Positions 27,718 to 51,414 of a stretch of 64,000 nt of DNA are shown here, one piece after another. The notes under the pieces are model-generated. The model saw nothing but the letters and a program-made list of their open reading frames with translations, had not been told where the DNA came from and did not search any database. How positions within the stretch are numbered: the stretch's first letter is position 1; the number at the start of each line of letters is the position of its first letter. This DNA is from Longimicrobiales bacterium (lineage in GTDB: Bacteria > Gemmatimonadota > Gemmatimonadetes > Longimicrobiales > Gaopeijiaceae), in contig OX639991.1 in the NCBI GenBank assembly GCA_951828585.1, positions 3,640,001 to 3,704,000 on the forward strand, read 5' to 3'. The position numbers were made by a program, and so were the translations under genes.

Positions 27718-28998
27718 TTGGTACGAATCGGTGAGATCGGACAGGGGTCGATCGCGGAAGCCCTGGAGCTTCGCATCGGCACCCGGATCCTGACGGTCAA
27801 CGGGGAGCGGGTAAGGGACAGTCTCGACTTCATGTTCCGCACCGCGGAGGAAGAGATCGAGCTGGAAGCCGTGGGGCCGGATGGCGACCGCGTGGTGTAC
27901 GAAATCGCGAGGAACCCGTCCGAGTCCCTGGGCATCGTGCCCGCGCGGGACAAGATCCGCGAATGCGCGAACGAGTGCGTGTTCTGCTTCATCGACGGCA
28001 ACCCCCCGGACGCGCGCGACCCCCTGTGGCTGCGTGACGACGACTTCCGCCTCTCGTTCACCTACGGCAGCTACGTCACGCTCACCAATCTGGGACTGCG
28101 AGGACTGCGCCGCCTCGTCGAACAGCGCATCTCGCCGCTCTATGTGAGCGTTCACGCGACCGATCCCGAAGTGAGGATTCGCCTTCTCAAGAACGAGCGC
28201 GCGGGTCTGATCGTGGAGCAGCTGCGGGAATTGCTCGCGGGGGGACTGGAGGTGCACACCCAGGTGGTGCTGTGCCCCGACTGGAACGACGGCGGGGAGC
28301 TGGACCGCACCATTCGGGACCTCTACGCCCTCGGTCCGGGGGTGCTCACCCTGTCGGTGGTGCCGGTGGGCCTGACCCGGTACAACCTGGAGCGTCCGGT
28401 TCGACCGCTGCGCCGCGACGAGGCGGCGGCGGCGCTGCGCCAAACGGAGGCGATTCGGGAGCGGGCGGGGCGGGAACGGGGACAGCACTGGTGCTACGCC
28501 GCCGACGAGCTCTTCCTGATCGCCGGGCGGGACGTTCCGGAGGCGGCCTACTACGACGACTGGACGCTGCGCGAGAACGGCGTGGGGGCGGTGCGCGCGC
28601 TCCTGGACGGGTTCGCGGGGGAGAGGGACCGGCTCGCGCCGCTGCCCGGCGTGGACCGGGTCCGGGTCGTGACGGGCGCCTCGATGAGGCCGTTCTTCGA
28701 GGAGATGGCGCCGGCGGCGTCGGGTCGGATGGACTGCGCGGTGGAGGTCATGGCGGTTCGCAATCGCTACTTCGGTCCGTCGGTGACCATCGCGGGGCTG
28801 CTGGCGGGAGCCGACATTCTCGACGCCGTGGGCGAGGGCCGCCGGGGGGACCTGGTGCTGCTGCCGGGCGAAGCCCTCAACGGCGACCGCGTGTTCATCG
28901 ACGGAGTCACCCTGTCGGAGGTGGAGGAGCGCCTCGCCCCCGCAGTCGTGCGAACGGGACATGATCTCGTCGAGGCGCTGACCCCCGTGACCCCATGA
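27718..28998 (+). CDS. DUF512-family radical SAM protein with N-terminal PDZ-like domain
   Basis: A 426-residue protein of the TIGR03279/DUF512 type. Residues 1-75 resemble a PDZ domain (GSIAEALELRIGTRILTVNG), then a CxxxCxxC iron-sulfur site at C83, C87 and C90 (CANECVFC), a radical SAM-like barrel with YVSVHATDPEVR, and the C-terminal DUF512 part. The biochemical role is not established. The TTG at 27718 follows GGGAGG by 9 bases. It overlaps der by 4 bases, suggesting coupled expression with a ribosome-assembly GTPase. Confidence 0.85.
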   Translation: MVRIGEIGQGSIAEALELRIGTRILTVNGERVRDSLDFMFRTAEEEIELEAVGPDGDRVVYEIARNPSESLGIVPARDKIRECANECVFCFIDGNPPDARDPLWLRDDDFRLSFTYGSYVTLTNLGLRGLRRLVEQRISPLYVSVHATDPEVRIRLLKNERAGLIVEQLRELLAGGLEVHTQVVLCPDWNDGGELDRTIRDLYALGPGVLTLSVVPVGLTRYNLERPVRPLRRDEAAAALRQTEAIRERAGRERGQHWCYAADELFLIAGRDVPEAAYYDDWTLRENGVGAVRALLDGFAGERDRLAPLPGVDRVRVVTGASMRPFFEEMAPAASGRMDCAVEVMAVRNRYFGPSVTIAGLLAGADILDAVGEGRRGDLVLLPGEALNGDRVFIDGVTLSEVEERLAPAVVRTGHDLVEALTPVTP

Positions 28999-30308
28999 GC
29001 CTTCCGGTCGTGGCTGTGGTGGGGAGGCCGAATGTGGGGAAGTCGACCTTCTTCAACCGGGCCATCGGGCGCCGCGTGGCGATCGTCGACGATGCGCCGG
29101 GCGTGACGCGCGACCGGAACTTCGAGGTAGCGGACTGGGCGGGACGGGACTTCTTCCTGGTGGACACCGGGGGTGTGGTGGAGGGCTCCGACCGGACGAT
29201 CGACCGCCTGATCCGTGAACAGGCGATGATCGCGGTGCAGGAGGCGGACGTGGTGCTCTTCCTGGTGGACTCCAAGACCGGGGTCCATCCGCTCGACCAG
29301 AAGCTGGCGGAGGTGCTGCGCAAGACGGCCAAACCCGTGCTGCTGGCGGTCAACAAGGTCGACAACCTCCCGGACGAGCGCTCCCACCTCGATTTCTGGG
29401 AGATGGGCATGGGCGAGCCCTACCCCGTCAGCTCGGTCTCGGGAAGGGGTTTCGGCGACCTCTTCGACGCGGTTGTCCCGCTCCTGTCGGCCGAAACGGA
29501 AGACCCCACGCCCACGGACATCCGGATTGCGGTCATCGGAAAGCCCAACGCCGGCAAGTCCTCCCTGGTGAACCGGCTCTTCGGTGAAGATCGCGTCCTC
29601 GTGAGCGAGGTGCCCGGGACAACCCGCGACCCCGTTGACCTCACCATGAGGTACCACGGGCGCAACCTCACCTTCATCGACACGGCGGGGCTGCGCCGGC
29701 ACGCGCGCATGAAGGACTCGGTGGAGTACTACAGCAGTCTGCGCACGGCGCGGGTGGTGCGCGCAGCGGACGTCTGTCTGGTCGTGGTGGACAGCGCCGA
29801 GGGACTGCACGTCCAGGACATCAAGGTGGCGGAGACGGCGTGGGAGGCGGGGTGCGGGGTGGTGATGGTGTGCAACAAGTGGGACCTGGTGGCCAAGGAC
29901 ACGGGCACGGCGGCGGCGTTTTCGGGCGAAGCAGGGAAGCGAGCGCCTTTCCTGCGCCACGTTCCCTTCCTTTTCGCGTCCGCCCTGACGGGGCTCAGAA
30001 TCCGCAAGACGCTCGACCTGGTGTGCGAGGTCGCGCGGCGCCGGCGCCACCGAATCGGCACTCCGGAAGTCAACGACGCCGTGGAGGCGCTGGTGCGGCG
30101 CCAGCCGCCCCCGCACTTCCGGGGGCGGCCCGTCAGGCTCAAGTACGCAACCCAGGCCCGGACCGTACCCCCCACATTCATCGTCTTCACGAACTTCCCG
30201 GACGCGATCCCGACGCACTACCACCGCTACATCGCCAACTCGCTCAGGAATGCATGGGACTTCAGCGGCGTGCCGCTGAGGATCAGGCTGCGCAAGAGCG
30301 GCGAATGA
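28995..30308 (+). CDS. der: GTPase Der (EngA), ribosome assembly factor
   Basis: Double GTPase needed for maturation of the large ribosomal subunit. The 437 residues contain two G domains, each with its P-loop (GRPNVGKSTFFN and GKPNAGKSSLVN), G3 (DTGG and DTAG) and NKxD motifs (NKVD and NKWD), followed by a KH-like C-terminal domain. The ATG at 28995 overlaps the DUF512 gene. Confidence 0.96.
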   Translation: MSLPVVAVVGRPNVGKSTFFNRAIGRRVAIVDDAPGVTRDRNFEVADWAGRDFFLVDTGGVVEGSDRTIDRLIREQAMIAVQEADVVLFLVDSKTGVHPLDQKLAEVLRKTAKPVLLAVNKVDNLPDERSHLDFWEMGMGEPYPVSSVSGRGFGDLFDAVVPLLSAETEDPTPTDIRIAVIGKPNAGKSSLVNRLFGEDRVLVSEVPGTTRDPVDLTMRYHGRNLTFIDTAGLRRHARMKDSVEYYSSLRTARVVRAADVCLVVVDSAEGLHVQDIKVAETAWEAGCGVVMVCNKWDLVAKDTGTAAAFSGEAGKRAPFLRHVPFLFASALTGLRIRKTLDLVCEVARRRRHRIGTPEVNDAVEALVRRQPPPHFRGRPVRLKYATQARTVPPTFIVFTNFPDAIPTHYHRYIANSLRNAWDFSGVPLRIRLRKSGE

Positions 30309-30408
30309 GCGCCGCCGGCCGATCTGGCTTCCCTCTGGCGGTTGTGGTAACCTCGTTCGCAAGTACGGGCTCCCGACGCCCGCGGGGCTCGACGATACGG
30401 GGGAGACC

Positions 30409-31032
30409 TTGACGAACGCACCCTTATTCGTGCTGGCGGCGTATGTCGCGGGGGCGACCCCATCCGCGTACTGGATCGGCCGCTTCCTCTACGGCAAGGA
30501 CCTGCGAACCCTGGGCAGTTGCAACCTCGGGGCGACCAACGCGCTGCGGGTGCTGGGGTGGCGGGCGGCGGTGTCGGTGTTCGTGGTCGACATCTTCAAG
30601 GGCTTCGCGCCGGTATGGTGGTTTCCCGGCCTCGACGACCAGACCGCCGTGTGGTGGACCGTGGTCTACGGCGCGGCGGCGATCGTGGGACATGTGTTCT
30701 CGTTCTGGGTCGGTTTCCGCGGAGGGAAGGGGGTCGCGACCAGCGCGGGCGTGCTTGGTGCGGTGGCACCGGTGGCGGTGGTTGCGGGGGCGGGGGCCTG
30801 GGTGGTGGTGCTGGTGGTCACGCGCATGGTGTCGGTGGCCTCGATGGTCGCCGCGGTGACCGTGGGAGTGGCCGGGCTCTTCATCCCGGGCCTGGGGGTG
30901 TGGAGCAAGGCGTTCCTCGGGTTCATCGCGGTCTTCGTCGTGTGGGCGCACCGCTTCAACATCAGGCGGCTGCTGGCCGGAGAGGAGCCGCGCATTGACG
31001 CGAACTTCGGCCGGGACGGTGCGGTCGAGTGA
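30409..31032 (+). CDS. plsY: Glycerol-3-phosphate acyltransferase PlsY
   Basis: Integral membrane acyltransferase using acyl-phosphate to make lysophosphatidic acid, the first step in phospholipid synthesis. The 207 residues have five or more hydrophobic segments, and the family motifs GSCNLGATNALRVLG and GFRGGKGVATSAG are present. The start is TTG 30409 just after a G-rich GGGGGAG. Its stop overlaps gpsA (GTGA), placing two consecutive phospholipid-precursor enzymes in one operon. Confidence 0.94.
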   Translation: MTNAPLFVLAAYVAGATPSAYWIGRFLYGKDLRTLGSCNLGATNALRVLGWRAAVSVFVVDIFKGFAPVWWFPGLDDQTAVWWTVVYGAAAIVGHVFSFWVGFRGGKGVATSAGVLGAVAPVAVVAGAGAWVVVLVVTRMVSVASMVAAVTVGVAGLFIPGLGVWSKAFLGFIAVFVVWAHRFNIRRLLAGEEPRIDANFGRDGAVE

Positions 31033-32075
31033 CTGCAAGGACTCCGGACAGGGTGACGGTCATCGGTGCGGGCGCGTGGGGCACCGCGCTGGCCAACCTG
31101 CTGGCCGACACTGGCGCCGAGGTGCGGATGTGGGCACGCGAACCGGAGGTTGTGGAAGCGGTCAACGCCACCGGCGAGAACACCCTCTACCTGGAAGGCG
31201 CTCGCCTGAATCCCGGCCTTGCGGTCACGAACTCGCTGGTGGCGGCCCTGGAGGATGCGGGGGTGGTCGTGTGGGTCTGTCCGGTGCAGTACTCGGCCGC
31301 GCTGCTGGCCGAGGCAGGTCCCCTCATCCCACCGGGGGCGTTGATGGTCTCGGCTTCCAAGGGGATCGAGGTGGCCACACTGCGCCGCATGGACGAGATC
31401 TTCGCCGAGGCCCTGCCGCGCGAGCAGGCGGAGCGACTGTGCGTCCTGTCGGGGCCGAGCTTTGCGCTTGAGGTGGTCGCGGGTGCGCCGACCGCCGTGG
31501 TGGTGGCCAGCCATGATCGTCAGGCCCGTCTGCATGCCCAGTCTCTCTTTCAGACGGATCGCTTCCGCGTCTACACCAACCGGGACGTGGTGGGCGTCGA
31601 GCTGGGCGGCGCCCTCAAGAACGTGATCGCGCTGGCGGCCGGTGTCGCCGCCGGCCTCGAGCTCGGCCACAACGCCGTGGCCGCGCTCATGACCCGCGGT
31701 CTGGCGGAGATGAGCCGGCTGGGGATGGCGCTCGGGGCCCAACCCGCCACCTTCGCCGGGCTCGCCGGAATGGGGGACCTGGTTCTGACGTGCACGGGGG
31801 GACTGAGCCGGAACCGGACGGTGGGGGTGATGTTGGGCCGGGGCCGCACCATGGAGGAGATCATGGGCGAGGCCCGGACGGTCGCGGAGGGCGTAGCCAC
31901 GGTGCGTGCCGTGCATTTTCTTGCCCAGAGGATCGGCGTGGAGATGCCCGTTTCGTCCGAGGTGTTTAGAATCATAGCCGAGGGTCTCGACCCGATGGAG
32001 GCCCTGGATCGTCTGATGACCCGTGAACCCACTTCGGAACACCCGGGCACGCGTGCCGCCGGGGAAAGGAACTGA
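31029..32075 (+). CDS. gpsA: NAD(P)-dependent glycerol-3-phosphate dehydrogenase
   Basis: Makes sn-glycerol-3-phosphate, the substrate of PlsY encoded immediately upstream. The 348 residues include the nucleotide-binding GAGAWGTALANLLAD, the SKGIE segment, the catalytic-Lys region ELGGALKNVIALAAG, and the later GLAGMGDLVLTC. The start is GTG 31029, overlapping plsY. Confidence 0.95.
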   Translation: MTARTPDRVTVIGAGAWGTALANLLADTGAEVRMWAREPEVVEAVNATGENTLYLEGARLNPGLAVTNSLVAALEDAGVVVWVCPVQYSAALLAEAGPLIPPGALMVSASKGIEVATLRRMDEIFAEALPREQAERLCVLSGPSFALEVVAGAPTAVVVASHDRQARLHAQSLFQTDRFRVYTNRDVVGVELGGALKNVIALAAGVAAGLELGHNAVAALMTRGLAEMSRLGMALGAQPATFAGLAGMGDLVLTCTGGLSRNRTVGVMLGRGRTMEEIMGEARTVAEGVATVRAVHFLAQRIGVEMPVSSEVFRIIAEGLDPMEALDRLMTREPTSEHPGTRAAGERN

Positions 32076-32080
32076 CCACC

Positions 32081-32440
32081 TTGGAGCCGCCGATCGCTCG
32101 CAAGACCTACTACTCGATCGGTGAGGTCAGCGCCCTCACGGGACTCAAGGCCCATGTGCTCCGGTACTGGGAATCGCAGTTCGACATGATCTCGCCGAAC
32201 AAGAACCGTGGCGGCAGCCGGGTGTACCGCATGCGGGATATCGAGACCGTCCTGCTGGTGAAGCACCTGCTTTACGAGAAGCGTTTCACCGTGGAGGGCG
32301 CCAAGCGGGAACTCAAGGGGATGCGGAGGGGAGGAAGGGCGGACGAGGCGCGGAAGATGCACACGGACCCAGCCGTTCTGCAATCGATCGGGGAAGAGCT
32401 CGCCTCCCTGCGCGAAGTGCTCACTCTTCCCACCGGCTGA
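32081..32440 (+). CDS. MerR-family transcriptional regulator
   Basis: A 119-residue protein with the MerR winged-helix DNA-binding domain: YYSIGEVSALTGLKAHVLRY and later GGSRVYRMRDIETVLLVKHL. The C-terminus is short and has no metal-binding Cys cluster or large effector domain, so it resembles the compact MerR proteins found beside translation and envelope genes rather than metal sensors. The start is TTG 32081, 5 bases after gpsA. Confidence 0.88.
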   Translation: MEPPIARKTYYSIGEVSALTGLKAHVLRYWESQFDMISPNKNRGGSRVYRMRDIETVLLVKHLLYEKRFTVEGAKRELKGMRRGGRADEARKMHTDPAVLQSIGEELASLREVLTLPTG

Positions 32441-32459
32441 CGAACTGCAAAGGAATCTC

Positions 32460-33206
32460 TTGCGCATACTCTGCACCAACGACGACGGCTACCTGTCGCC
32501 GGGTATCCGGGTCCTCGCCGAAGCCGCCCACGCCATCGGCCCGGTCGACATCGTGGCGCCGGACCGTGAACGGAGCGCCGCGAGCAACTCCCTGACGCTG
32601 CACCGGCCACTTCGCAAGCGGAAGGTCCCCGACGGCACCACCATCGTGGACGGGACCCCCACCGACTGCGTGATCCTGGCGGTGATGGAATTCCTCGACC
32701 AGCGCCCAAACCTTTGCGTCTCGGGGATCAACCACGGTCCCAACATGGGAGAGGATGTCCTCTACTCCGGAACTGTGGCAGCCGCGATCGAGGCGACCAT
32801 CCTGGGCATTCCCGCGGTCGCGTTCTCCTACGTGGGGAGCGGGATCGAAGAGGTGGAGGGGTGGCAACCGGTGGTCAGCCGGCTGCTGGCGCAGATCCTG
32901 AAGCAGGGGATCCCGGCTCACGAACTGCTCAACGTGAACCTGCCGGCCATGGATCCTGCGGAGGTCCGCGGCGTACGCGTGACAAACCTCGGGAAGCGCC
33001 GCTACTCGGACGCCATTACCCGGGCTCCGGATCCTTCGGGGAATGAGTACTACTGGATCGGGGGAGGGTACCCGCATTGGAACGGCGGGCCCGACTGCGA
33101 CTTCCGGGCGGTGCGCGACGGGTACATCTCGGTGACGCCCCTGCACCTGGATCTGACCAGCTATCCCCGCCTCGATCACGTGCGAGGGTGGAAGCTTCAG
33201 CCTTGA
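32460..33206 (+). CDS. surE: 5'/3'-nucleotidase SurE
   Basis: Metal-dependent nucleotidase of survival protein E type. The 248 residues begin MRILCTNDDGY, with the Asp pair that binds the metal, and include APDRERSAASNSLT and VSGINHGPNMGEDVLYSGTV, all conserved in SurE. The start is TTG 32460. The gene follows the MerR regulator by 19 bases. Confidence 0.95.
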   Translation: MRILCTNDDGYLSPGIRVLAEAAHAIGPVDIVAPDRERSAASNSLTLHRPLRKRKVPDGTTIVDGTPTDCVILAVMEFLDQRPNLCVSGINHGPNMGEDVLYSGTVAAAIEATILGIPAVAFSYVGSGIEEVEGWQPVVSRLLAQILKQGIPAHELLNVNLPAMDPAEVRGVRVTNLGKRRYSDAITRAPDPSGNEYYWIGGGYPHWNGGPDCDFRAVRDGYISVTPLHLDLTSYPRLDHVRGWKLQP

Positions 33207-33297
33207 TGGGGTGGGGGATGCTTCGGCGGGCGACCGGGATTCTCCTCATCGAACGGGTGCGCTCCCTGCGAGGCTGCCCCGAAGCGGACAGGCCTCG

Positions 33298-34545
33298 ATG
33301 AGACATTGGTTCGGAAACTCCTTGCGGGGCGTGTGCATGGGGCTCGCGGACGTGATCCCCGGGGTCTCGGGTGGTACGGTGGCGCTCATCCTGGGGATCT
33401 ATCCGCGCCTGATCAATGCGGTGGGGAGCATAGGCGCCGGGATGCTTCGCCGACTTCGGCTGCGCTCGTTCCGCCTGTTGCTGAAAGAGGGACTGAGGGA
33501 GCCCGCGCGCCTGCGCGACGCACCGGGGGGGACCGAGGCCGGCCATATCCTGCTCCTCGGGTCCGTCGTGGCCGGAATCGTCCCGGCAATCCTTGCCGGC
33601 GCGCAGGTTCTGCCTCCGCTGCTGAGCAGCCACCCCGAACAGATGCGGGGCCTGTTCCTGGGCCTTGTGATGGCCTCGGTGGCGATTCCCGCGCGCCAGA
33701 TCGGGCGGCGCAGTCTGTCGCGCTGGGTTCTGGCGTGCGTAGCGGCTTTGATGACCGCCTGGTTCGCGGGTCTGCCGGAGCCGTCGACCCGTCACGCCCG
33801 GGGATGGGTGACGATCGAGTTCGCCGCACCGGTTGCCGGCGAAATCCGGCTCACGCCGGGCAACCTGACGCTGGAGGCACCCGGCGAAGGAGGCCGCCCA
33901 GCCGTGGAATTCGGCCTGCTCCGGTCGCACGTGGTCGCGGCGGGCGCGGCATCGCTGGAGGTTGAGGTGGTCGCGCGGATGGCGGGCGCTGCGGGGAACC
34001 TGCCGGCAGCCTCGATCCGCGAGGGGGACGGCCCTGTGGAGATCGCCGCGGTCACGCAACCGGAGGCGCTGACCGGGGGCCGAGACCCGAGCCTGGTGTA
34101 CGTCTTCGTGGGTGGAGCCCTGGCGATATCCGCCATGGTCCTGCCAGGCGTTTCAGGGTCGTTCGTGCTCCTGTTGCTGGGCCTGTATCACTTCGTCCTG
34201 CACTCGCTCGCGCTGACGTTGGCGGGTGACCTCCGCGCCGCCGTGGTCGTCATCACCATGGTGGCGGCCATGGCCTTCGGACTGCTGACGTTCACACGTA
34301 TTCTGAAGGCCCTCTTCGCGCGGTGGCGGGAGGCGACCCTTGCCGTGCTCGTGGGGCTCATGGTCGGGTCGCTGAGGAAGCTGTGGCCCTTTGTGGAGCA
34401 GCGCGACGACGGGAGCGATTTCATGACTCTGCCGGTCGCGGGAGATCCCGACACGGTGACGGTGCTGGCCATGTTCGTGGCTGGGGTCGGGGCGGTGGTG
34501 CTGCTGGACAGGGCGGGGCGGCGGGCGGGGGCGCGGGGGCGGTAG
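33298..34545 (+). CDS. DUF368 polyprenyl-phosphate transporter with an extra central domain
   Basis: Membrane protein of 415 residues. The duplicated DUF368 motif is visible twice: ADVIPGVSGGTVALILGIY at the N-terminus and AMVLPGVSGSFVLLLLGLY after the middle. Recent work assigned DUF368 and DedA proteins to undecaprenyl-phosphate recycling across the inner membrane. Residues about 162-262 are an unusual non-membrane beta-rich insertion between the two halves, containing AAGNLPAAS. The ATG at 33298 is preferred over the longer frame, whose extension is low-complexity. Confidence 0.85.
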   Translation: MRHWFGNSLRGVCMGLADVIPGVSGGTVALILGIYPRLINAVGSIGAGMLRRLRLRSFRLLLKEGLREPARLRDAPGGTEAGHILLLGSVVAGIVPAILAGAQVLPPLLSSHPEQMRGLFLGLVMASVAIPARQIGRRSLSRWVLACVAALMTAWFAGLPEPSTRHARGWVTIEFAAPVAGEIRLTPGNLTLEAPGEGGRPAVEFGLLRSHVVAAGAASLEVEVVARMAGAAGNLPAASIREGDGPVEIAAVTQPEALTGGRDPSLVYVFVGGALAISAMVLPGVSGSFVLLLLGLYHFVLHSLALTLAGDLRAAVVVITMVAAMAFGLLTFTRILKALFARWREATLAVLVGLMVGSLRKLWPFVEQRDDGSDFMTLPVAGDPDTVTVLAMFVAGVGAVVLLDRAGRRAGARGR

Positions 34546-40094: not shown

Positions 40095-40305
40095 TCGCTC
40101 CTGCGCGGGATCGTCATTGGACCTCTTAAGCTAAGAGATATGCCTCCGTTTCGGGCGTTTGGTACGGAGTCAACCGAACCCTCCAATATAGGCCGGTTCC
40201 AGTCGCCGCTGCCGTGGAGTGGCCTGTCGGCAGGACTCCGGCGATTTGTGACGCAGGGTGTCCGGGCTTCCGCCGCCGCCGGTTGCCTGATAGAGTCAAT
40301 GGACC

Positions 40306-40506
40306 ATGAGCATCAAGGCCGAATACAGGGATGGGGTGTTCGCACCCCTTCAGGAGGTGGAAGAACCCACCCCGGGCGAAGTCTACCAAGTCTTCTCCGA
40401 GAGCGAGTTGAGACGACTTGCGGCCGCCGTTCCGTGGTTGAGGGCTTCGGAGCGCAGCTTCGAGTTCTGGGAGAACGAGGAGGATGCCGTCTACGATGCC
40501 CTATAG
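40306..40506 (+). CDS. Small antitoxin-like protein paired with PemK/MazF
   Basis: A 66-residue acidic protein beginning SIKAEYRDGVFAPLQEV, the opening of AF2212/DUF104-like antitoxins, then PGEVYQVFSESELRRL. Its 3' end overlaps the toxin start, the usual arrangement for a type II module in which the antitoxin neutralises and represses. The upstream 210 bases (40095-40305) show no gene and should hold the promoter. Confidence 0.7.
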   Translation: MSIKAEYRDGVFAPLQEVEEPTPGEVYQVFSESELRRLAAAVPWLRASERSFEFWENEEDAVYDAL

Positions 40507-40834
40507 GCAGGGCGACATCGTTCTCGTCTCTTTCCCCTTCACCGATCTCAGTTCATCCAAGAGACGCCCCGCGCTGGTCCTGTCCCCAGACTCCTTCAAC
40601 GCCAGCGGAGAGGACCTCGTGCTGGCGGCGGTGACCTCCCACACCACGGATGACCCCCACGGCGTTCGTCTCTGGCACGGCGACTTCGCGGCAGGTGGGC
40701 TTCCCAAGCGATCGATGGTGAAGGCAACCAAACTTTTTACGATGCACTCCTCGCTCATCGTCAAGCGGATCGGTGCCCTCACGACGGAGAAGATGGAGGA
40801 AGTGCTACGGTCATTGCGCGACTTCTTCTCCTGA
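40496..40834 (+). CDS. PemK/MazF-family toxin
   Basis: Endoribonuclease toxin of 112 residues from ATG 40496. The family opening YRQGDIVLVSFPFTDLSSSKRRPALVLS is clear, including the Arg-Pro-Ala-Leu-Val strand that carries conserved residues, followed by KATKLFTMHSSLIVKRIG. An alternative ATG at 40484 adds four residues. It overlaps the antitoxin by 11 bases and appears intact, unlike the neighbouring DUF433 module. Confidence 0.85.
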   Translation: MPYRQGDIVLVSFPFTDLSSSKRRPALVLSPDSFNASGEDLVLAAVTSHTTDDPHGVRLWHGDFAAGGLPKRSMVKATKLFTMHSSLIVKRIGALTTEKMEEVLRSLRDFFS

Positions 40835-41040
40835 AGCCGGATGGACGCGCCAGAGGATGCCACCGCTGTGACGGCGCCTCTCTATGATTGAAGGCGTTCC
40901 TGAGGATGCGCGGACGGCCTGCCGACACAGCGCGGGGGTGTTTTTTCCGCCTCGTTGGCGGCGGCTGCCGATGGTACAGATACGTCCCGGGACATCCCAA
41001 GACGTTGTGAGAAATAAGGATGTTTTCGAAGGGTTGACTT

Positions 41041-41582
41041 GCTGGCAAGCGGCCCTTCAGCGTTCAAGCACTGATCCGGGACTACCTGCTCCAGCGAGTC
41101 GAGCACGGCATGGTGCGGAATCTGCCGATGTCGTCTCCGCGCTTCGGGAGGCGGGTCTTGAAGTGCCGCGCCAGGGCAAGGACTACCTGACCGCGCTGGA
41201 CCCCGAGAGCGGGGACCGGTGGCGGCTGAAAGGAGAACTGTATGGAGAGAACTTCGACCGCGAACGATTTGACCGAGCGGCTGCGGAGAAGTTGGAGAGC
41301 GAGAGACGGGAAATCGAGAAGTTGACCGCGAGCGAGCTGGGGCGGCTCGGCGAGAACTCGCGGCGCGTCGCGAGGAACGCGCTCAGTACAATCGAGCGCG
41401 ATACGGAGGAGGCGACCGGCAAGGTGAGCGAGTTGCCGGTCAAGGCGTGGCAACGGCCGCTGATCGTAGGCCTGAGCCTTTGGCTCGGTTTCTTCGGCGG
41501 AAGCTGGGCGACGATGTGGTGGTTGTCGAGGGGCATCGCTGAAGCACCGCGATTGGGCTCGCGCCAAAAGGCAGGCGGATGA
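41041..41582 (+). pseudogene. Relaxase/mobilisation protein C-terminal remnant, frameshifted
   Basis: In the frame from 41041 the DNA reads AGKRPFSVQALIRDYLLQRV then EHGMVRN. After a one-base slip near 41117-41122 it continues as ADVVSALREAGLEVPRQGKD and YLTALDPESGDRWRLKG, the C-terminal domain typical of MobA-like relaxases of mobilisable elements. A charged helix and one hydrophobic segment near the end (PLIVGLSLWLGFFGG) follow. The catalytic N-terminal relaxase domain with its Tyr and His triad is missing. The gene is a decayed mobility gene next to a recombinase. Confidence 0.6.
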
Positions 41583-41595
41583 GGTTGCCGCTGGC

Positions 41596-42561
41596 TTGGC
41601 CGTCCACGAGCCCGCTGGCTTAGCGGAAGCCGCGCCCGAACCGCTCACCCTAGAGACGCTGTTTGACATCTACCGGGAAGAGGTCACCCCCACCAAGGCC
41701 AAGCGTTCGCGGCGGTACGAACGGGCCGCGATCGCGATGTTCCTCAAGTTCTTCGGCCGACGCCGGCGGCCTGCGACGCTCTCCCAACGCGACTGGGAGC
41801 GGTTCATCCGGGCGGGCAGGGTAGGCCCGAGTGGGCGGCCGGTATCCAACCGGACCATCGAATACGACCTGAAGTTCCTGCTCGCGGTCCTCAACTGGGC
41901 AGCGAGGTCGAGGCACGAGGAAGGCAGGCTCCTGCTGGAGTCCAACCCGCTGAGGGGCCTGAAGACGCCCAAGCAGAAAAACCCGGCCAGGGTGCTTGTC
42001 ACCGATGCGGAGTACGAGGCCCTGCTCAAGGCGTCGTTGCGGATCGACTGGCGATTCCGCGTGGCGCTGGTGATCGCCCACGAAACGGGTCACCGCATCG
42101 GAGCCATCCGCCAGCGTCGCTGGTCGGACATCGACATGGAGGAAAGAACCATCCGATGGCGCGCCGAACACGAGAAGACGGGCCACGAGCACCGGACGCC
42201 GGTGACCGCCGAAGCCCTCGCCGCCCCGGAGGAGGCGCGAAGACACAACCCCGGGATTGGGGACGCTCCTCTCTTTCCGGCGCCCGGAGATCCCTCAAAG
42301 AGCGTAAGCCGCTCACGGGCGCGCACTTGGTGGGTGAAGGCCCAGACGCTGGCGGGACTGGAACCAAAGCATCGACGCGGCTGGCACTCGCTCAGGCGGA
42401 AGTTCGCCTCCGACCTCATGAACCAGCCACTCAAGGTGCTCTGCGAACTGGGAGGCTGGAAGACGGCCCAGACCGTCCTCCAGTGCGACCAGAGGACCGA
42501 CGAGGACCGGCTCAGGAAGGCTCTCGAAGAGTACCGGCAGGTCGGTTCCGGATCCAATTAA
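41596..42561 (+). CDS. Tyrosine recombinase/integrase with catalytic Tyr replaced by Asp
   Basis: A 321-residue phage-type integrase with an N-terminal core-binding domain (LTLETLFDIYREEVTPTKA) and a C-terminal catalytic domain. Arg167 (GHRIGAIR), His264 and Arg267 (WHSLRRKFA) and Trp288 (GGWKTAQ) occupy the RHRH/W positions. The nucleophile position, 10 residues on, is Asp298 (VLQCDQ); the sister copy at 51.2 kb reads VLQCYQ. The TTG 41596 start is uncertain because the frame is open upstream with family-like HRDWARAKRQADE. It is probably inactive. Confidence 0.8.
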   Translation: MAVHEPAGLAEAAPEPLTLETLFDIYREEVTPTKAKRSRRYERAAIAMFLKFFGRRRRPATLSQRDWERFIRAGRVGPSGRPVSNRTIEYDLKFLLAVLNWAARSRHEEGRLLLESNPLRGLKTPKQKNPARVLVTDAEYEALLKASLRIDWRFRVALVIAHETGHRIGAIRQRRWSDIDMEERTIRWRAEHEKTGHEHRTPVTAEALAAPEEARRHNPGIGDAPLFPAPGDPSKSVSRSRARTWWVKAQTLAGLEPKHRRGWHSLRRKFASDLMNQPLKVLCELGGWKTAQTVLQCDQRTDEDRLRKALEEYRQVGSGSN

Positions 42562-42609
42562 GCCGGAACAATTTGCCGGAATCCGACCCCCGAAATCCCG
42601 TAAGTCCAA

Positions 42610-42652
42610 TGGGCCTGGGTAGACTTGAACTACCGACCTCACGCTTATCAGG
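42610..42652 (-). other. 3' fragment of tRNA-Ile(GAT), likely attachment-site remnant
   Basis: On the minus strand this segment reads as the 3' half of tRNA-Ile: the anticodon loop CTGATAA with anticodon GAT, the T-arm GGTAG/CTACC around TTCAAGT, and the acceptor end CCAGGCCC. Homology stops at about 42652, so the 5' half is absent. It lies 48 bases after the recombinase stop, the usual place for the tRNA 3' end recreated by an integrated element. Confidence 0.75.
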
Positions 42653-43168
42653 CCACCAGAAAGTAGTTGGGAATCCGGGCAAGAAGTTGCGTAAATCCAA
42701 CCAGGACCGCACGATCCCTCCTTCTTGCACCTGTCCGCTGTCACGATCGATCAGATCGAAAAAGCCGGAGATTTGACGGAGAACGGACGGAGTGCCAGTG
42801 CGCCAACCGGGAGTTGGCGACGATCCCAGCCTTCAGCACACGACGGCTCAGTTCCGAGCGGCTGAAGCGCGGCGGGACCAACCCCAGCTATGCTAAGCGG
42901 GGAGCCGGTCCTGGCCCCTGACACAGTTGGGCGTCATGAGCCAGCCGATTGGTTTTGAACATCGCGGCTTGGGAGGGGGATGCTACACCCCCCTTCGACT
43001 TCCAAGCTTCCCACACCGATGTCCGAGGATCGAAGCGGGGACGGGATGATCCGACCTGAACCGCCGTGAACCCCGCACGATGTGCTATCTTCACTTCACT
43101 GGGGCGCTGTCCGTCGGCGAATCGCGCCTCGGAAGGCCGGTAGAGACTCAAACCCTCAAGTCATACGG
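42653..43168. other. Gene-free stretch upstream of the giant lipoprotein gene
   Basis: About 515 bases between the tRNA-Ile fragment and ATG 43169. No frame here resembles a known protein and no ribosome-binding site stands out before 43169. It probably includes the element's inner attachment flank and the promoter of the large gene. Confidence 0.45.
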
Positions 43169-46100
43169 ATGAAGCCTCGAGTCACTCTTTTCCGAACCAT
43201 CCTCCGGGTGTTCGCGGTGGTGGCCGGAGTCGCCTGGGCGTCGGCCTGCGGCGACGGGACCACCGAGCCGCCGACCGATCCTCCCAGGCCGACCGCCGTC
43301 GCGGTGACCCCGGCCACGGCGGAACTGGCCGCGCTGGGTTCGACCGTGCAGCTGAGCGCCGAGGTGAGGGATCAGTACGGCAACGTGATGGCGGGCGCGA
43401 CCGTCGCCTGGGCGAGCAGCGCTGCCGCGGTGGCGGGAGTGGACACGGCAGGTCTCGTGACGGCGCATGACAACGGAGTCGCGACGGTGACCGCGACGGC
43501 GGGGTCGGCGTCCGGCACGGCCGCCGTGACGGTGGCGCAGCAGGTAAGCGCGGTCGCGGTATCTCCCGCGGTCGACACCCTGGTGGTGGGCGACACGTTG
43601 CGGCTGGCGGCGGAGGCAACCGATGCGAACGGTCATCCGGTGGCGGGAATCACATTCGTGTGGGCATCGGGCGACACGCTGGTTGCGGTGGTGGACGATG
43701 CGGGCCTCGTGATCGGGACCGGGGCAGGCGAGGTGGAGATCACGGCGGCTGCGGCGGGGGCCGCGGGAACCGCGACGCTTGCGGTCGTGGCTCCGGTGCC
43801 GACGACCATCGCGGTCGCCCCGGACACGGTGGCGTTCGCGGCTCTGGGCGACACCGTGCGGCTCATGGCCGACGTGAGGGATCAGGTTGGCCGCCCGATG
43901 GCGGACCAGGCAGTGGAGTGGAGCAGCGGCGACACGCTGGTGGCCACGGTGGATTCGGCCGGGCTGGTAACGGCAACCGGCAACGGGGCCACGGCGATCA
44001 CGGCCACTGCGGGGTCGGCGTCCGGCACGGCCGCCGTGACGGTGGCCCAGCAGGTGAGCGCGGTCGCGGTGTCTCCCGCGGTCGACACCCTGGTGGTGGG
44101 CGACACGTTGCGGCTGGCGGCGGAGGCAACCGATGCGAACGGTCATCCGGTGGCGGGAATCACATTCGTGTGGGCATCGGGCGACACGCTGGTTGCGGTG
44201 GTGGACGATGCGGGCCTCGTGATCGGGACCGGGGCAGGCGAGGTGGAGATCACGGCGGCTGCGGCGGGGGCCGCGGGAACCGCGACGCTTGCGGTCGTGG
44301 CTCCGGTGCCGACGACCATCGCGGTCGCCCCGGACACGGTGGCGTTCGCGGCTCTGGGCGACACCGTGCGGCTCATGGCCGACGTGAGGGATCAGGTTGG
44401 CCGCCCGATGGCGGACCAGGCAGTGGAGTGGAGCAGCGGCGACACGCTGGTGGCCACGGTGGATTCGGCCGGGCTGGTAACGGCAACCGGCAACGGGGCC
44501 ACGGCGATCACGGCCACTGCGGGGTCGGCGTCCGGCACGGCCGCCGTGACGGTGGCCCAGCAGGTGAGCGCGGTCGCGGTGTCTCCCGCGGTCGACACCC
44601 TGGTGGTGGGCGACACGTTGCGGCTGGCGGCGGAGGCGACCGACGCGAACGGCCATCCGGTGGCGGAAGCCCGGTTCGCGTGGGCATCGGGCGACACGCT
44701 GGTCGCCATGGTGGACGATACGGGCCTCGTGACCGGGATCGGCGCAGGCGAGGTGGAGATCACGGCCGCTGCTGCAGGGGTCGCGGGGGCCGCGAAGCTC
44801 GCGGTCTTGGCTCCGGCACCGACGACCATCGCGGTCGCCCCGGACACGGTGGCGTTCGCGGCGCTCGGCGACACCGCGCGGCTCATGGCCGAGGTGAGGG
44901 ATCAGGTTGGCCGCCCGATGGCGGACCAGGCAGTCGCGTGGGCCAGCGGCGACACGCTGGTGGCCATGGTGGATTCGGCCGGGTTGGTTACGGCAACCGG
45001 CAACGGAGCCACGGCGATCACGGCCGCTGCGGGATCGGCCGCGTCCGGCACGGCCGCCGTGATAGTGGCCCAGCAGGTGAGCGCGGTCGTGGTGTCTCCC
45101 GCAGCCGCTACGCTGTTTGTGGGCGACACGTTGCGGCTGGAGGCAGCGGCGACCGACGCGAACGGTCAGCCTGTGGCGGGGACCACGTTCGTGTGGGCGT
45201 CGGGCGACACGGCGGTTGCGACGGTGGACGATGCGGGCCTTGTAACCGGGGTCGGCGCGGGCGAGGTGGAGATCACGGCCACGGCCGTGGGGGTCGCGGG
45301 GGCCGCGCAGCTCGCGGTCGTGGCTCCGGCGCCGACGGCCATCGCGGTCGCCCCGGACACGGTGGCGTTCGCGGCGGTGGGCGACACCGCGCGGCTCATG
45401 GCCGACGTGAGGGATCAGGTTGGCCGCCCGATGACGGATCAGGCGGTCGCGTGGGCCAGCAGCGATACGCTGGTGGCCGTGGTGGATTCGGCCGGATTGG
45501 TGACCGCAACCGGCAACGGAGCTACAGCGATCACGGCCGCTGCGGGATCGGCCGCGGACACTGCGATCGTTACGGTGATGCAAGTGGTCGGCGTCGTCGT
45601 TTCGCCCGCCGCCGACACGATCGCGCCCGGCGACACGTTGCGGCTTGCGGCAGAGCTGTTCGACGAGAACGGGCACCGCGTGAGCGGTGCGGCCTTCAAC
45701 TGGTCGACGAGTGACAAGTCGGTGGCCAGCGTGGACGGCGCGGGCCTGGTTCGCGGCGTCAGCGAAGGGGCCGTGACGATCACCGCGATGGCGGGCGATG
45801 CCTTCGGCGTCTCCGAGATCACGGTGGCAACCCTCGAACGGACCGCTCTGGTGGCCCTTTACGAGGCGACGGACGGCCCCAACTGGTCCAATTCCGACAA
45901 CTGGCTTACCGATGCGCCGCTCGGGGACTGGTACGGGGTGCGTACCGACGGGTCGGGGCGCGTCGTCTCGTTGAATCTTTCGGGCGAGTGGGACAGCGAG
46001 AACCCCGGGTGGATAGTTCACGGGCTGAGCGGGCCGATCCCGCCCGATCTTGCCAACCTCGCCCAACTACGGAGCCTGAACCTGTGGGGCAACGCGCTGA

Positions 46101-49100
46101 GCGGCCCGATCCCGGTCGAGCTCGGCAGCCTGGTCAACCTGGAATGGCTCTACCTGGGCGCCAACAACCTCAACGGTCCGATCCCGGTCGAACTCGTAAA
46201 CCTCGCCAAGCTGAGGCACTTTAATCTGTTCGACAATGCGCTGGAAGGCGCAATCCCGGCCGAGCTCGGTGGTCTGGTCAACCTGGAAGGCCTCTCCCTG
46301 GGCGCTAACAACCTCGCCGGTCAGATTCCGTCCGAACTTGCGAATCTCCCCCAACTACGGACCCTGGACCTGTGGAGCAATGCGCTCACCGGTCCGATTC
46401 CGTCCGAACTTGCCAACCTCGCCCAACTACGGACCCTGGAGCTGTCCGAGAACGCGCTTTCCGGTCAGATTCCGTCCGAACTTGCGAATCTCCCCCAACT
46501 ACGGACCCTGAGGCTGTACGACAACAACCTCGCTGGCCCGATCCCGGCCGAACTCGGCAGCCTGGTCAACCTGGAAAAACTCCACCTAGGCCATAACAAC
46601 CTCTCCGGCCCGATCCCGCAAAGCTTCCTGCAACTTGACAAGCTTCAGGCCTTCTACATCGGGGGCAACGAAGGTCTTTGCATGCCCGGCATTTCCGCAT
46701 TTGTGGCATGGCTGGAGGGCATCGAACGTCGGGACGATTCGGACGCCTTCTGCAACGAGTCCGACCGGAAGGTGCTCGAGTTGTTGTTCGAGCGAGCGGG
46801 CGGTCCCCGCTGGACAAATGCGGATGGGTGGGTCGGCGGCCCAGCCCTGGACGAGTGGCACGGGGTCCGCGCCGACTCGCTGGGTCGCGTGGCGGCGCTT
46901 GACCTGGAGCGAAACGGGCTCTCGGGAGGACTCCCCGCGAGTCTGGGGACGTTGGCTCGGATGACGGAGCTGAGGATCGGTGGCAACACGGCCCTTTCCG
47001 GTCCGCTTCCGCTGTCCCTGGTGGCGCTTTCGTTGCGCGCACTTCACTACCAGGGCACCGGTCTTTGCGCACCGTCTCCGGCGCGGTTCCAGGAATGGTT
47101 GAACGCGATCCCGTCCCACGAGGGCACGGGAGCCACATGCGCGCCGCTGGCGGACCGGGAGATCCTGGAGGTCGTATACGAGTCACTTGGCGGACCCGGG
47201 TGGACCAACAGCGACAACTGGCTGACGGATCGGCCGCTGGGGGACTGGTATGGGGTGGAGGTGGACGCCCAGGGCCGCGTAGTCAACCTGCGACTGCACT
47301 ACAACGGCATCTCGGGATCGATCCCCCGGGAGCTTGGAAGCCTGAAGCATCTGGTGTGGCTGAGCCTCGCAGGCAGCTCTTCCGACTTGGCGGGCACGAT
47401 CCCGGCCGAACTCGGCGACCTCGCCAATCTGCGGTTGCTGAATCTTTTCGACACGAACATCGGGGGCACGATTCCGGCCGAACTCGGCAACCTCGCCAAT
47501 CTGGAATGGCTCGACCTTGCGGAGAACAACCTGGAAGGCGCCATTCCAGCCGAACTCGGGCATCTCCGCAACCTGAGGTCGCTCAATCTTATCGACAATC
47601 ACTTGGCGGGGACGGTTCCGGTCCAACTTGGAGTCCTTTTCGAGTTGCGGGAGTTGTCCCTCAGCGGCAACGAGCTGACGGGGCCGATCCCGGCCCAGTT
47701 CGGCAACCTGTCCCACCTCCAAGTGCTTTCTCTCAGCCGGAACGGGCTATCGGGTCCGCTGCCCGCCGGACTCGGCGGGCTTGCCGGGCTCGAAGAGCTG
47801 CATGTCGGCCACAACGAGCTTGAAGGCACGGTGCCGGTGGAGTTCCGAGGTCTGACGAGCCTCCGACAGTTCTCCCTGCAGGGCAACGCGGACATGTCCG
47901 GCGCCCTTCCGGCAGAGCTGGCCGCTCTGGATTCGCTGGAAACGCTCGTGGCCGATGGCACAGGACTCTGCGCGCCGTCCGACCCCGGCTTCCTGGTCTG
48001 GCTGGACGGCCTGCCGAACGGGCGCGTTGCTCGCTGCGGAAGCAGGCCCGCGACGGCCTATCTCGTGCAGACGGTGCAGTCGCGGGAGTTCCCGGTCCCG
48101 CTCGTGGCGGGCGAGGAGGCGCTGCTGCGGACGTTCGTCACGGCAACACAGGCGAACCAGGAACCCCGGCCACGCGTCCGCGCCTCGTTCTATGTAGGCG
48201 GGGCGCGCGTCCATGTGGCCGAGATTCCGGCGAGCGCCGGTCCGATTCCGACCGAGGTGGAGGAGGGGTCGCTGGCCGCGTCCGCCAACGCCGTGGTCCC
48301 CGCCAGTGTGATCCGCCCCGGCCTGGAAATGGTCATCGAGATCGACCCGGACGGGACGCTGGACCCGGGGCTGGGCGTCGCGAGACGGATCCCCGAAACG
48401 GGCCGCCTTCCGGTCGACGTGCGCCAAATGCCTGTCCTCGACCTCACGGTGATTCCCTTCCTGTGGAGCGCCGATCCGGACTCGGCGATCCTGGGCCAAA
48501 CGGCCGGCATGGCGGCCGATCCCCATGGTCACGAACTGCTCTACGAAACCCGAACCCTGCTGCCGGTCCGCGGTCTCGACGTAACGGCGCACGCACCCGT
48601 GCTCTCGTCGAGCAACAACATGCATGCGCTCCTTCGCGAAACTCGCGCGATCCGTGCGCTCGAAGCGGGTAGCGGCCACTGGATGGGCATGATGTCGGGA
48701 ATGGGGAAATCAGACCCTGGTGTGGCCTACCGGCCGGGCCGGGTCAGCTTCTCGGTACCGAACGCGAGAGTTATGGTGCATGAACTGGGCCACAACATGA
48801 GCTTGGCGCATGCGCCGTGCGGTGCGGCCGGCCGACCTGATCCGGCGTTCCCATACGGCGATGGATCGAGCGGTGTCTGGGGCTATGATTCTCGGGATGG
48901 GGGCAGCCTGGTTCATCCGTCCACGCCGGACGTGATGTCGTACTGCTTCTATCCCCACTGGATCAGCGACTACCACTTCACCAAGGCGCTTCGCTTCCGC
49001 CTTGCCGACGAGGGGAGCGGTAGCGGCGGCATGGTTGCCGAACCGGCAGCTTCCCTCATGCTGTGGGGCGGCGTCGACGCGGATGGAGCGCCGTTTCTGG

Positions 49101-49519
49101 AACCCGCATTCGCGGTCGACGCACCGCCGCTGCTGCCTGACTCCGCCGGCGACTATCGGATCATCGGAACCGCCGCCGGCGGGGAGACGCTCTTCTCGAT
49201 CAGCTTCACGATGCCCGTGCTGGCGGACACCGATGGGGCATCGTCGTTCGTCTTCGTCGTGCCAGCCCGGGCTGCCTGGCAGGGTACGCTCGCTGCCATC
49301 ACGCTGACCGGACCAAGCGGGACCGCCGCCCTCAACGGCGACAGCAACCGCCCCATGTCCATCCTGCGTGATCCACGCACGGGGCAGGTCCGCGGCATCC
49401 TTCGCGACCTGCCGGCTGCGGCTCAGGTTGCCGGGGACCTGGCGGAGCGCACCGCTGGGCCGGGGCTGGACATGCTCTTCAGTCGCGGGATCCCGGATGC
49501 CGCCGCCTGGAGTCGCTGA
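43169..49519 (+). CDS. Giant surface lipoprotein: Ig-like repeats, plant-type LRRs and C-terminal metzincin domain
   Basis: A 2116-residue protein. A lipobox (WASAC) near residue 27 anchors it. Residues about 45-890 are ten Ig-like (Big_2) domains with alternating openings VSAVAVSP and TTIAVAP. Residues about 890-1620 hold three LRR modules, each starting with an LRRNT-like cap (YEATDGPNWSNSDNWLTD) and followed by LSGPIP-type repeats. Residues about 1640-2020 form a metallopeptidase with HELGHNMSLAH at 1871-1881 and a Met-turn VMSYC at 1922-1926, so metzincin-like. The Gly usual at position 8 of HExxHxxGxxH is Ser. It probably degrades or binds surface or host glycoproteins. Confidence 0.85.
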   Translation: MKPRVTLFRTILRVFAVVAGVAWASACGDGTTEPPTDPPRPTAVAVTPATAELAALGSTVQLSAEVRDQYGNVMAGATVAWASSAAAVAGVDTAGLVTAHDNGVATVTATAGSASGTAAVTVAQQVSAVAVSPAVDTLVVGDTLRLAAEATDANGHPVAGITFVWASGDTLVAVVDDAGLVIGTGAGEVEITAAAAGAAGTATLAVVAPVPTTIAVAPDTVAFAALGDTVRLMADVRDQVGRPMADQAVEWSSGDTLVATVDSAGLVTATGNGATAITATAGSASGTAAVTVAQQVSAVAVSPAVDTLVVGDTLRLAAEATDANGHPVAGITFVWASGDTLVAVVDDAGLVIGTGAGEVEITAAAAGAAGTATLAVVAPVPTTIAVAPDTVAFAALGDTVRLMADVRDQVGRPMADQAVEWSSGDTLVATVDSAGLVTATGNGATAITATAGSASGTAAVTVAQQVSAVAVSPAVDTLVVGDTLRLAAEATDANGHPVAEARFAWASGDTLVAMVDDTGLVTGIGAGEVEITAAAAGVAGAAKLAVLAPAPTTIAVAPDTVAFAALGDTARLMAEVRDQVGRPMADQAVAWASGDTLVAMVDSAGLVTATGNGATAITAAAGSAASGTAAVIVAQQVSAVVVSPAAATLFVGDTLRLEAAATDANGQPVAGTTFVWASGDTAVATVDDAGLVTGVGAGEVEITATAVGVAGAAQLAVVAPAPTAIAVAPDTVAFAAVGDTARLMADVRDQVGRPMTDQAVAWASSDTLVAVVDSAGLVTATGNGATAITAAAGSAADTAIVTVMQVVGVVVSPAADTIAPGDTLRLAAELFDENGHRVSGAAFNWSTSDKSVASVDGAGLVRGVSEGAVTITAMAGDAFGVSEITVATLERTALVALYEATDGPNWSNSDNWLTDAPLGDWYGVRTDGSGRVVSLNLSGEWDSENPGWIVHGLSGPIPPDLANLAQLRSLNLWGNALSGPIPVELGSLVNLEWLYLGANNLNGPIPVELVNLAKLRHFNLFDNALEGAIPAELGGLVNLEGLSLGANNLAGQIPSELANLPQLRTLDLWSNALTGPIPSELANLAQLRTLELSENALSGQIPSELANLPQLRTLRLYDNNLAGPIPAELGSLVNLEKLHLGHNNLSGPIPQSFLQLDKLQAFYIGGNEGLCMPGISAFVAWLEGIERRDDSDAFCNESDRKVLELLFERAGGPRWTNADGWVGGPALDEWHGVRADSLGRVAALDLERNGLSGGLPASLGTLARMTELRIGGNTALSGPLPLSLVALSLRALHYQGTGLCAPSPARFQEWLNAIPSHEGTGATCAPLADREILEVVYESLGGPGWTNSDNWLTDRPLGDWYGVEVDAQGRVVNLRLHYNGISGSIPRELGSLKHLVWLSLAGSSSDLAGTIPAELGDLANLRLLNLFDTNIGGTIPAELGNLANLEWLDLAENNLEGAIPAELGHLRNLRSLNLIDNHLAGTVPVQLGVLFELRELSLSGNELTGPIPAQFGNLSHLQVLSLSRNGLSGPLPAGLGGLAGLEELHVGHNELEGTVPVEFRGLTSLRQFSLQGNADMSGALPAELAALDSLETLVADGTGLCAPSDPGFLVWLDGLPNGRVARCGSRPATAYLVQTVQSREFPVPLVAGEEALLRTFVTATQANQEPRPRVRASFYVGGARVHVAEIPASAGPIPTEVEEGSLAASANAVVPASVIRPGLEMVIEIDPDGTLDPGLGVARRIPETGRLPVDVRQMPVLDLTVIPFLWSADPDSAILGQTAGMAADPHGHELLYETRTLLPVRGLDVTAHAPVLSSSNNMHALLRETRAIRALEAGSGHWMGMMSGMGKSDPGVAYRPGRVSFSVPNARVMVHELGHNMSLAHAPCGAAGRPDPAFPYGDGSSGVWGYDSRDGGSLVHPSTPDVMSYCFYPHWISDYHFTKALRFRLADEGSGSGGMVAEPAASLMLWGGVDADGAPFLEPAFAVDAPPLLPDSAGDYRIIGTAAGGETLFSISFTMPVLADTDGASSFVFVVPARAAWQGTLAAITLTGPSGTAALNGDSNRPMSILRDPRTGQVRGILRDLPAAAQVAGDLAERTAGPGLDMLFSRGIPDAAAWSR
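43562..44638 (+). repeat. Exact 510-bp tandem duplication inside the giant gene
   Basis: Bases 43562-44128 are identical to 44072-44638, a period of 510 bp (170 codons, two Ig domains). Identity is complete over 567 bases, then breaks at A43561/G44071 on the left and A44129-side divergence on the right, where a third, diverged unit begins. The frame is preserved. Either a very recent unequal exchange or an assembly collapse/expansion explains it. Confidence 0.9.
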
Positions 49520-49648: not shown

Positions 49649-50827
49649 TAGTGTATCATAAATCCTTGCGCAGTGGATCGTCGTGTGGTATCCTTCTCCC
49701 GTAGCCCTTCATGGAACTTCAATGGGAGAATGCGACATCATGGCGAATCACCACACGCGAGCGGTCCCGGAGATTGAAGACGGACAGCGGGAGGAGCTCG
49801 AACGCTGGCTGCGGCGGTCCAAGACCGGACAGGCCCTGGCGCTGCGCGCCCGGATCGTGCTGGCGTCGGCCGAGGGGGAGAGCGACATGGGCGTGGCGGC
49901 CCGGCTGGGCACGACGCGCGAAACGGTGGGCAAGTGGCGCCGGCGGTTCATCGAGAAGGGATGCGACGGGCTTCTGGACGAGCCGAGGCCGGGCGCCCCG
50001 CGCACGGTCAGCGACGCGGACGTCGAACGGGTGGTGACGATGACGCTCGAGGCGATGCCGCGGGGCGCCACGCAGTGGAGTACGCGCTCGATGGCGAAGG
50101 CGTGCGGCATGAGTTCCGCGACGGTGAACCGGATCTGGCGGGCCTTCGGCCTGCAGCCGCACCGCATGGAGACCTTCAAGCTCTCGGCCGACCCGCTGTT
50201 CATCGAAAAGGTGCGCGATGTCGTGGGGCTCTACATGGCCCCGCCGGAGCGGGCGGTCGTGCTCTGCGTGGACGAGAAGTCGCAGATCCAGGCGCTCGAC
50301 CGCACCCAGCCGATGCTTCCGCTGCGTCCGGGGACGCCCGCCCGCCAGACCCACGACTACAAGCGCAACGGCACCACCTCGCTCTTCGCCGCCCTCGACA
50401 TCGCTACCGGCGAGGTCATTGGAAAATGCTATCCGCGCCACCGGTCCGTCGAGTTCAGGAAGTTCCTCGCGGTCATCGAGAAGGAGGTGCCGAAGGAGCT
50501 GGACGTCCATCTGGTCCTCGACAACTACGGCACCCACAGGACCGCGATGATCCACAAGTGGCTTCTCAGGCACCCACGCTTCCACCTGCATTTCACCCCG
50601 ACCAGCGCGTCATGGCTCAACCAGATCGAACGCTGGTTCGCCGAGATCACCAACAAGCAGATCCGGCGCGGGAGCTACCGGAGCACCCGCGAACTCGTGC
50701 AGGCCATCGAGGACTACCTGGCCGTCCACAACGAGGATCCCAAGCCCTTCGTCTGGACGAAGTCCGCGGACGACATCCTGGAATCCCTGAAGAGCTACTG
50801 CGAACGAATTACCGATGCGGAACACTA
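49649..50827 (+). mobile_element. IS630-family insertion sequence
   Basis: An element of about 1.18 kb bounded by TA on each side, the target always duplicated by IS630/Tc1-mariner elements. The left end reads TAGTGTATC and the inverted right end TAGTGTTCC, and further in AATCCTTGCGCAG matches AATTCGTTCGCAG, so the inverted repeats are imperfect. It encodes one intact transposase. Its right boundary falls directly beside a 5'-truncated recombinase. Confidence 0.75.
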
Positions 50828-50828
50828 G
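49740..50828 (+). CDS. IS630-family transposase
   Basis: The 362-residue DDE transposase has an N-terminal helix-turn-helix ([21 protein letters not shown]), then catalytic residues in [20 protein letters not shown] and [18 protein letters not shown] 49740 gives the usual length; an upstream ATG at 49722 is possible. The stop codon TAG at 50826-50828 is made from the terminal TA plus the flanking G, so the reading frame ends exactly at the element's edge. Confidence 0.92.
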
Positions 50829-51292
50829 CGACATGATCCGCCAGCTTCGCTGGTCCGACATCGACATGCAGGACAAGATCATCCGGTGGCGGGCCGAGAA
50901 CGAGAAGACCGGGTACGAGCACCGAACGCCGATCACGCCCCACGCTCTCACCGTCCTGCAGGAGGCTCGGCTGCGGAACCCCAGGGCGGGGAACGCTCCC
51001 GTGTTGCCCGCGCCGAAGGACCCGTCGAGGTGCCTGGACCGGTCGCGTGTGCGAGTCTGGTGGAGTAAGGCCCAGAAAACTTGCAGGGCTGGAGCCAAAG
51101 CGCGGTCGCGGCTGGCACTCCCTGAGGCGGAAGTTCGCCTCCGACCTCATGAACCAGCCACTCAAGGTGCTCTGCGAACTGGGAGGCTGGAAGACGGCCC
51201 AGACCGTCCTCCAGTGCTACCAGCGGGCCGACGAGAATCAGCTCAGGAAGGCCCTCGAAGAACGCCGGAGGGTCTCCATTCCCGCCAATTAG
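50828..51292 (+). pseudogene. Broken tyrosine recombinase (5' truncated, +1 frameshift)
   Basis: The catalytic half of an integrase closely related to the one at 41.6 kb. It begins abruptly at IRQLRWSDIDMQDK beside the IS630 right end, so the N-terminal domain and first catalytic Arg are lost. Relative to the other copy it has one extra base near 51069-51078, after which the frame 51047-51292 continues WHSLRRKFASDL and GGWKTAQTVLQCYQ. It keeps the Tyr that the other copy has lost. About 105 bases around 51112-51219 are almost identical to 42382-42486. Confidence 0.8.

Positions 51293-51340: not shown

Positions 51341-51414
<74 letters not shown>

Follow-up and report, generated by a model that had tools for sequence, protein, structure and literature searches.

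Results

Within the window, by which we mean the whole 64-kb stretch of DNA that was analyzed, ~10.5 kb separate a PemK/MazF-like toxin gene (40484–40834, forward strand), the left border of an island, from a tRNA-Arg(CCT) gene (51341–51414, reverse strand), its right border. Between them lie, in order, a relaxase gene fragment, a putative integrase pseudogene, a 3′ segment of a tRNA-Ile gene, a gene for a 2145-aa repeat protein, an IS630 transposase gene, and a second integrase remnant. The 2145-aa open reading frame (43082–49519) shows repeats at a spacing of ~510 bp in its early part and, by eye, leucine-rich-like repeats later.

The region of the toxin gene is also found near tRNA-Arg in G005 and G006, where the PemK region and the tRNA gene are ~170 bp (L151) and ~60 bp (L153) apart, respectively, and where the flank beyond tRNA-Arg (window position 51768 onwards) is conserved at 78%. 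This close spacing was seen in two of the 13 loci compared, themselves chosen from 30; the remaining loci showed different left neighbors, other pieces of integrase, or no conservation of the flank, with several retaining the right flank next to different left neighbors. The interval has the features of a decayed tRNA-borne island, namely extra DNA beside a tRNA gene, integrase remnants within it, and absence of that DNA in relatives. A contig of G016, on which the integrase nearest to the window copy lies beside tRNA-Arg, is collinear with window positions 27927–33459 (74–78% identity) and 40263–40911 (87%). Next to the integrase of the nearest relative, L053, lies a gene for a CAP12/Pycsar-type TIR protein (L053:4294-5394, reverse strand; PF10137), possibly anti-phage cargo.

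The first integrase was initially recognized as a frame at 41596–42561 (forward strand), which translates to 321 aa and is open, with no internal stop. Its product matches the PF00589 domain (62.7 bits; cut-off, 27.1) and also PHROG integrases (phrog_1). The earlier note had placed R167, H264, R267, and W288 of the catalytic set in this frame, and the family alignment recovers all four at those positions; likewise, the GAC codon for Asp298 that it had reported within 42484–42492 lies at 42487–42489 (forward strand), at the position of the catalytic tyrosine. Of what marks an active tyrosine recombinase, the frame has the PF00589 match, the Arg, the His-x-x-Arg, and the His/Trp, and lacks the nucleophilic Tyr.

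The alignment comprised the window copy plus 90 further copies (91 in total) from its own genome and related genomes, taken from the best matches listed; because it was drawn from best matches, this sample leans towards intact genes. Loci repeating the same places (L001, L011, L012, L015, L016, L047-L052, and L054-L076) were left out, as was L053, seemingly the contig G016:C210 itself, with which it agrees in length. Also outside the tally is the window's 51.2-kb copy (L009), and a cut at E 1e-60 excluded fragments and distant relatives (L008, L010, L013, L014, L017, and L040-L046). Internal stops are present in 3 of the 91 copies.

At the nucleophile column, 89 copies have Tyr, the window copy has Asp, and one (L007) does not reach the column, so that every other copy extending this far (89 of 89) carries the tyrosine. 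Tyr298Asp is unique within this sample of 91, which leans towards intact genes. Among 80 codon-aligned copies, the codon is TAC in 41, TAT in 38, and GAC in the window copy. In a profile of three family members, with the residue counted by hand, the column corresponds to residue 261 of PDB 4a8e, which we take to be the XerA of the study cited next. Passages of that paper identify Tyr261 as the catalytic tyrosine of archaeal XerA and report a Y261F variant as inactive (PMC3646895). From this alignment, Asp at the nucleophile position would be expected to cause a loss of strand cleavage.

The alignment does not place a nucleophilic tyrosine elsewhere in the window copy: Tyr313, considered as an alternative, lies outside the conserved column, 15 residues past it, and is absent from two intact copies aligned. 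Structure prediction from three sequences said little about the active site, with a mean pLDDT of 54.9 and values <50 across residues 257–310. Titles and abstract openings among the papers listed offered no obvious precedent for tyrosine recombinases without the nucleophile, a statement about those titles and openings rather than a claim of absence from print.

An error of sequencing or assembly at 42487 would account for the aspartate if the true codon were TAC, and such an error could be suspected where a single base differs and all 79 other codon-aligned copies have TAC or TAT. We nevertheless regard it as very unlikely, given that the assembly consists of one contig of 4.47 Mb at 99.5% completeness and that a real substitution would be unremarkable in a gene that is otherwise decayed; the truncation described below stands regardless of this base.

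The TTG at 41596 is no more than the earliest permitted start codon downstream of a stop, and family homology begins upstream of it, at ~41536. The putative 5′-truncated pseudogene (tyrosine recombinase, PF00589) accordingly spans 41536–42561 (forward strand). Its homology starts at codon 47 of L050:8416-9576, a 387-aa integrase of the same genome, leaving the start and the first 46 residues gone (the first 66 when counted from the TTG). The lost part is presumably the N-terminal arm-binding region of lambda-type integrases. A script found the N-terminal GRNR motif in frame upstream in 81 of the 91 copies, or 82 with a variant seen by eye; the ten without a scripted motif include the window copy, L077 (the variant form), and some copies that are cut by contig ends or masked.

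Fused to this 5′ end is a MobA/MbeA-like relaxase gene fragment with an overlapping accessory frame (41071–41537, forward strand), 93% identical to L050:7253-7721. It represents residues 184–343 of the 529-aa L050 relaxase, itself a match to PF03432, in broken frames; for residues 1–183 and 344–529 of that intact protein, no counterpart was found in the window. The locus retains neither an intact relaxase nor a complete N-terminal region and start codon for the integrase. When window 40300–43100 was used to query 23 genomes at the DNA level, relaxase-region matches stopped at 41536–41537 and most of the integrase matches listed started at 41535–41536. The putative deletion junction is thus at 41536–41537, where a 2-bp overlap, TC, is common to both homologous blocks.

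At L050, where both genes are full length, the relaxase and integrase blocks are 92.5% and 74% identical to the window, respectively, and lie 832 bp apart, leaving ~0.83 kb absent from the window. Read by hand, at least 10 loci among the matches listed, L050 included, have the two blocks on one strand and 745–832 bp apart; elsewhere among these matches the relaxase block is alone or more distant (for example, ~1.9 kb in G002:C40). Loss of the 5′ part would probably be enough by itself to inactivate the integrase, given the region that it presumably encoded.

Other conserved positions have also been lost. For a count of invariant columns, 11 of the 91 copies were dropped for stops, partial sequence, or masking (masked bases, X, are present in L038), leaving 80. 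The window copy has four losses at columns invariant in all others (D68E, a gap at R71, L174R, and Y298D), the highest number in the set; three other copies have two losses, 13 have one, and 63 have none.

A relative-rate test against the nearest relative, L018_1501, used the nearest 24 of 78 outgroups and gave nonsynonymous-to-synonymous (N:S) counts of 6:18 to 10:8 for the window lineage, all below a neutral expectation of ~2.4:1. Synonymous changes exceeded nonsynonymous changes in 20 of the 24 tests, were equal in 1, and were fewer in 3. The window and intact sister lineages did not differ significantly in N:S (lowest Fisher p 0.09, in tests that share data), and since the ratio is not different from that of an intact lineage, inactivation of the window integrase was probably recent. 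For most of the time since its divergence, the integrase seems to have evolved under constraint. Long neutral decay was also considered, and the test gives no sign of it. The pattern fits recent inactivation and also residual constraint.

Another reading is that the shortened, Tyr-less protein has been retained for DNA binding or regulation, for example by occupying att sites or joining tetramers with its intact paralogues. The frame is indeed open, its nonsynonymous share is not significantly unlike that of the sister lineage, and three intact paralogues exist in the genome. Against this, the copy has lost the start codon of its homologues together with the part upstream, it has the most invariant-position losses among 80, and the tyrosine is replaced in none of the 89 other copies; we give such retention very little credence.

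The second integrase remnant (50830–51292, forward strand; L009) begins directly after the IS630 family transposase ORF that it abuts (49683–50828, forward strand), and its 5′ part was not found. The TAC codon that the earlier note had cited from this copy at 51.2 kb is there, at 51218–51220, in what is itself a fragment rather than an intact gene, with a frameshift near 51076–51087. A tract at 42394–42486 (forward strand) of the first integrase is identical to 51125–51217 of the second (0 differences in 93 bp) and stops one base before the Asp codon, while the sequence flanking it shows 10 differences over 45 bp and 12 over 57 bp between the remnants. Each of the other 79 copies shows at least 4 differences from the window tract (median 13), and gene conversion between the two remnants is probable. 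Among six copies elsewhere in the same genome, three (L002, L003, and L004) are full length by script, with both the start motif and the Tyr, and L005 has a stop within its N-terminal part; with only three of six whole, integrase decay is common in that genome.

Downstream of the first integrase, an att-like segment (42585–42653, forward strand) combines 25 bp of integrase 3′ flank with 44 nt of the 3′ part of tRNA-Ile(GAT), the latter on the reverse strand. The segment is identical over 69 bp to an intact tRNA-Ile(GAT) locus at 2.398 Mb, where another integrase fragment is found, and a third copy of the tRNA-Ile core occurs at 1.980 Mb (L017; G000:C1:1979566-1979647), 3′ of an integrase remnant that, by eye, still has its Tyr codon. 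Similarity of L017 to the window extends beyond the tRNA-Ile core; ARAGORN found no tRNA gene in L017.

A second tRNA-Ile core was not found in the 64-kb window (35-mer with up to 3 mismatches; 15-mer with up to 2), nor was a second tRNA-Arg segment (31-mer with up to 3 mismatches), whose only match was the tRNA itself; at those mismatch levels the window contains no paired att direct repeats around an element. Only one example of each tRNA att core having been found, the window offers no pair to bracket an excisable segment, although a partner core may lie outside it or be more diverged. In G016, the contig with the nearest integrase does carry a second tRNA-Arg segment (G016:C210:38140-38206).

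Among the best 22 copies from relatives (L018-L039), 15 adjoin tRNA genes, and none was found beside the own-genome copies L002-L007. At L018 (G016:C210), two integrases face tRNA-Arg from both sides, and at L026 (G006:C71), two flank and face one tRNA-Ile gene; further convergent integrase pairs ~200 bp apart occur among the matches listed. This one integrase family reaches as many as 38 matches in a genome among the matches listed (G000-G022 and G033), a figure equal to the number of candidates scored and perhaps a ceiling, being abundant in the genus and also strong in one genome of a related genus.

Discussion

Taken together, these comparisons make it highly probable that the window integrase is a recently inactivated pseudogene in a decayed mobile island at tRNA-Arg(CCT). 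In the scenario that we favor, a deletion removed the 5′ end of an integrase gene from an abundant, often tRNA-adjacent family and joined the rest to part of a relaxase gene; the gene also carries Tyr298Asp and other losses, and the substitution may have come before or after the deletion. The aspartate, the truncation, the fusion, the broken second copy, and the failure to find a second att core in the window can be read from the sequence. From these we infer that no working protein comes from this frame and that the aspartate is one among several decay mutations. The most likely description of the locus is an ordinary dead mobile-element remnant, not an element locked by one base change.

A lock of this kind had been proposed in the earlier note, by which one base change in an otherwise working integrase would abolish strand cleavage and fix the element in place. 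The part of the proposal that concerns catalysis holds up, as the substitution falls at the nucleophile position and loss of cleavage is expected; the part that concerns a working element does not. The other catalytic residues are intact, the constraint on the open frame resembles that of its sister, and Tyr298Asp could predate the deletion, all of which would suit a lock. However, the same gene has lost its start, its first 46 codons, and three more otherwise invariant positions, the relaxase is only partial, the other integrase copy is itself a broken fragment, and a search of the window found no further att core to pair with either tRNA segment. In addition, three intact paralogues elsewhere in the genome might act in trans. 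We therefore judge a single-base lock to be very unlikely.

Some role in DNA binding could also be imagined for the remnant, with the shortened integrase still being translated and retained to bind att sites and modulate the intact paralogues. This would be a very improbable reading. A decayed pseudogene remains the preferred one, and by itself the window integrase matters little. The lesson is that a missing catalytic residue should be interpreted alongside the whole gene before a mechanism is proposed, and a genus with many copies of one integrase family could serve the study of how islands accumulate and decay.

The closest known systems are the integrases of integrative elements (PF00589 and phrog_1), with which the window copy has in common the R-H-R-W residues and the profile match, and, like them, it is followed by a tRNA 3′ segment; unlike them, it is missing the Tyr and 46 residues at its N terminus. 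Within the same genome, the paralogue L050:8416-9576 (G000:C1, near 1.518 Mb) belongs to a module of the integrative mobilizable kind and has the same order, a relaxase region followed by an integrase. The two loci have ~93% DNA identity in the relaxase fragment and 65% protein identity in the integrase, and the L050 copy has the Tyr, the start, and the 0.83 kb that are absent from the window copy. The nearest relative found is the integrase of Gemmatimonadetes bacterium SB0661_bin_33 (L053, VXMI01000136.1), with 85% protein identity; it adjoins tRNA-Arg(CCT), and, unlike the window copy, it is 389 aa long with the Tyr present.
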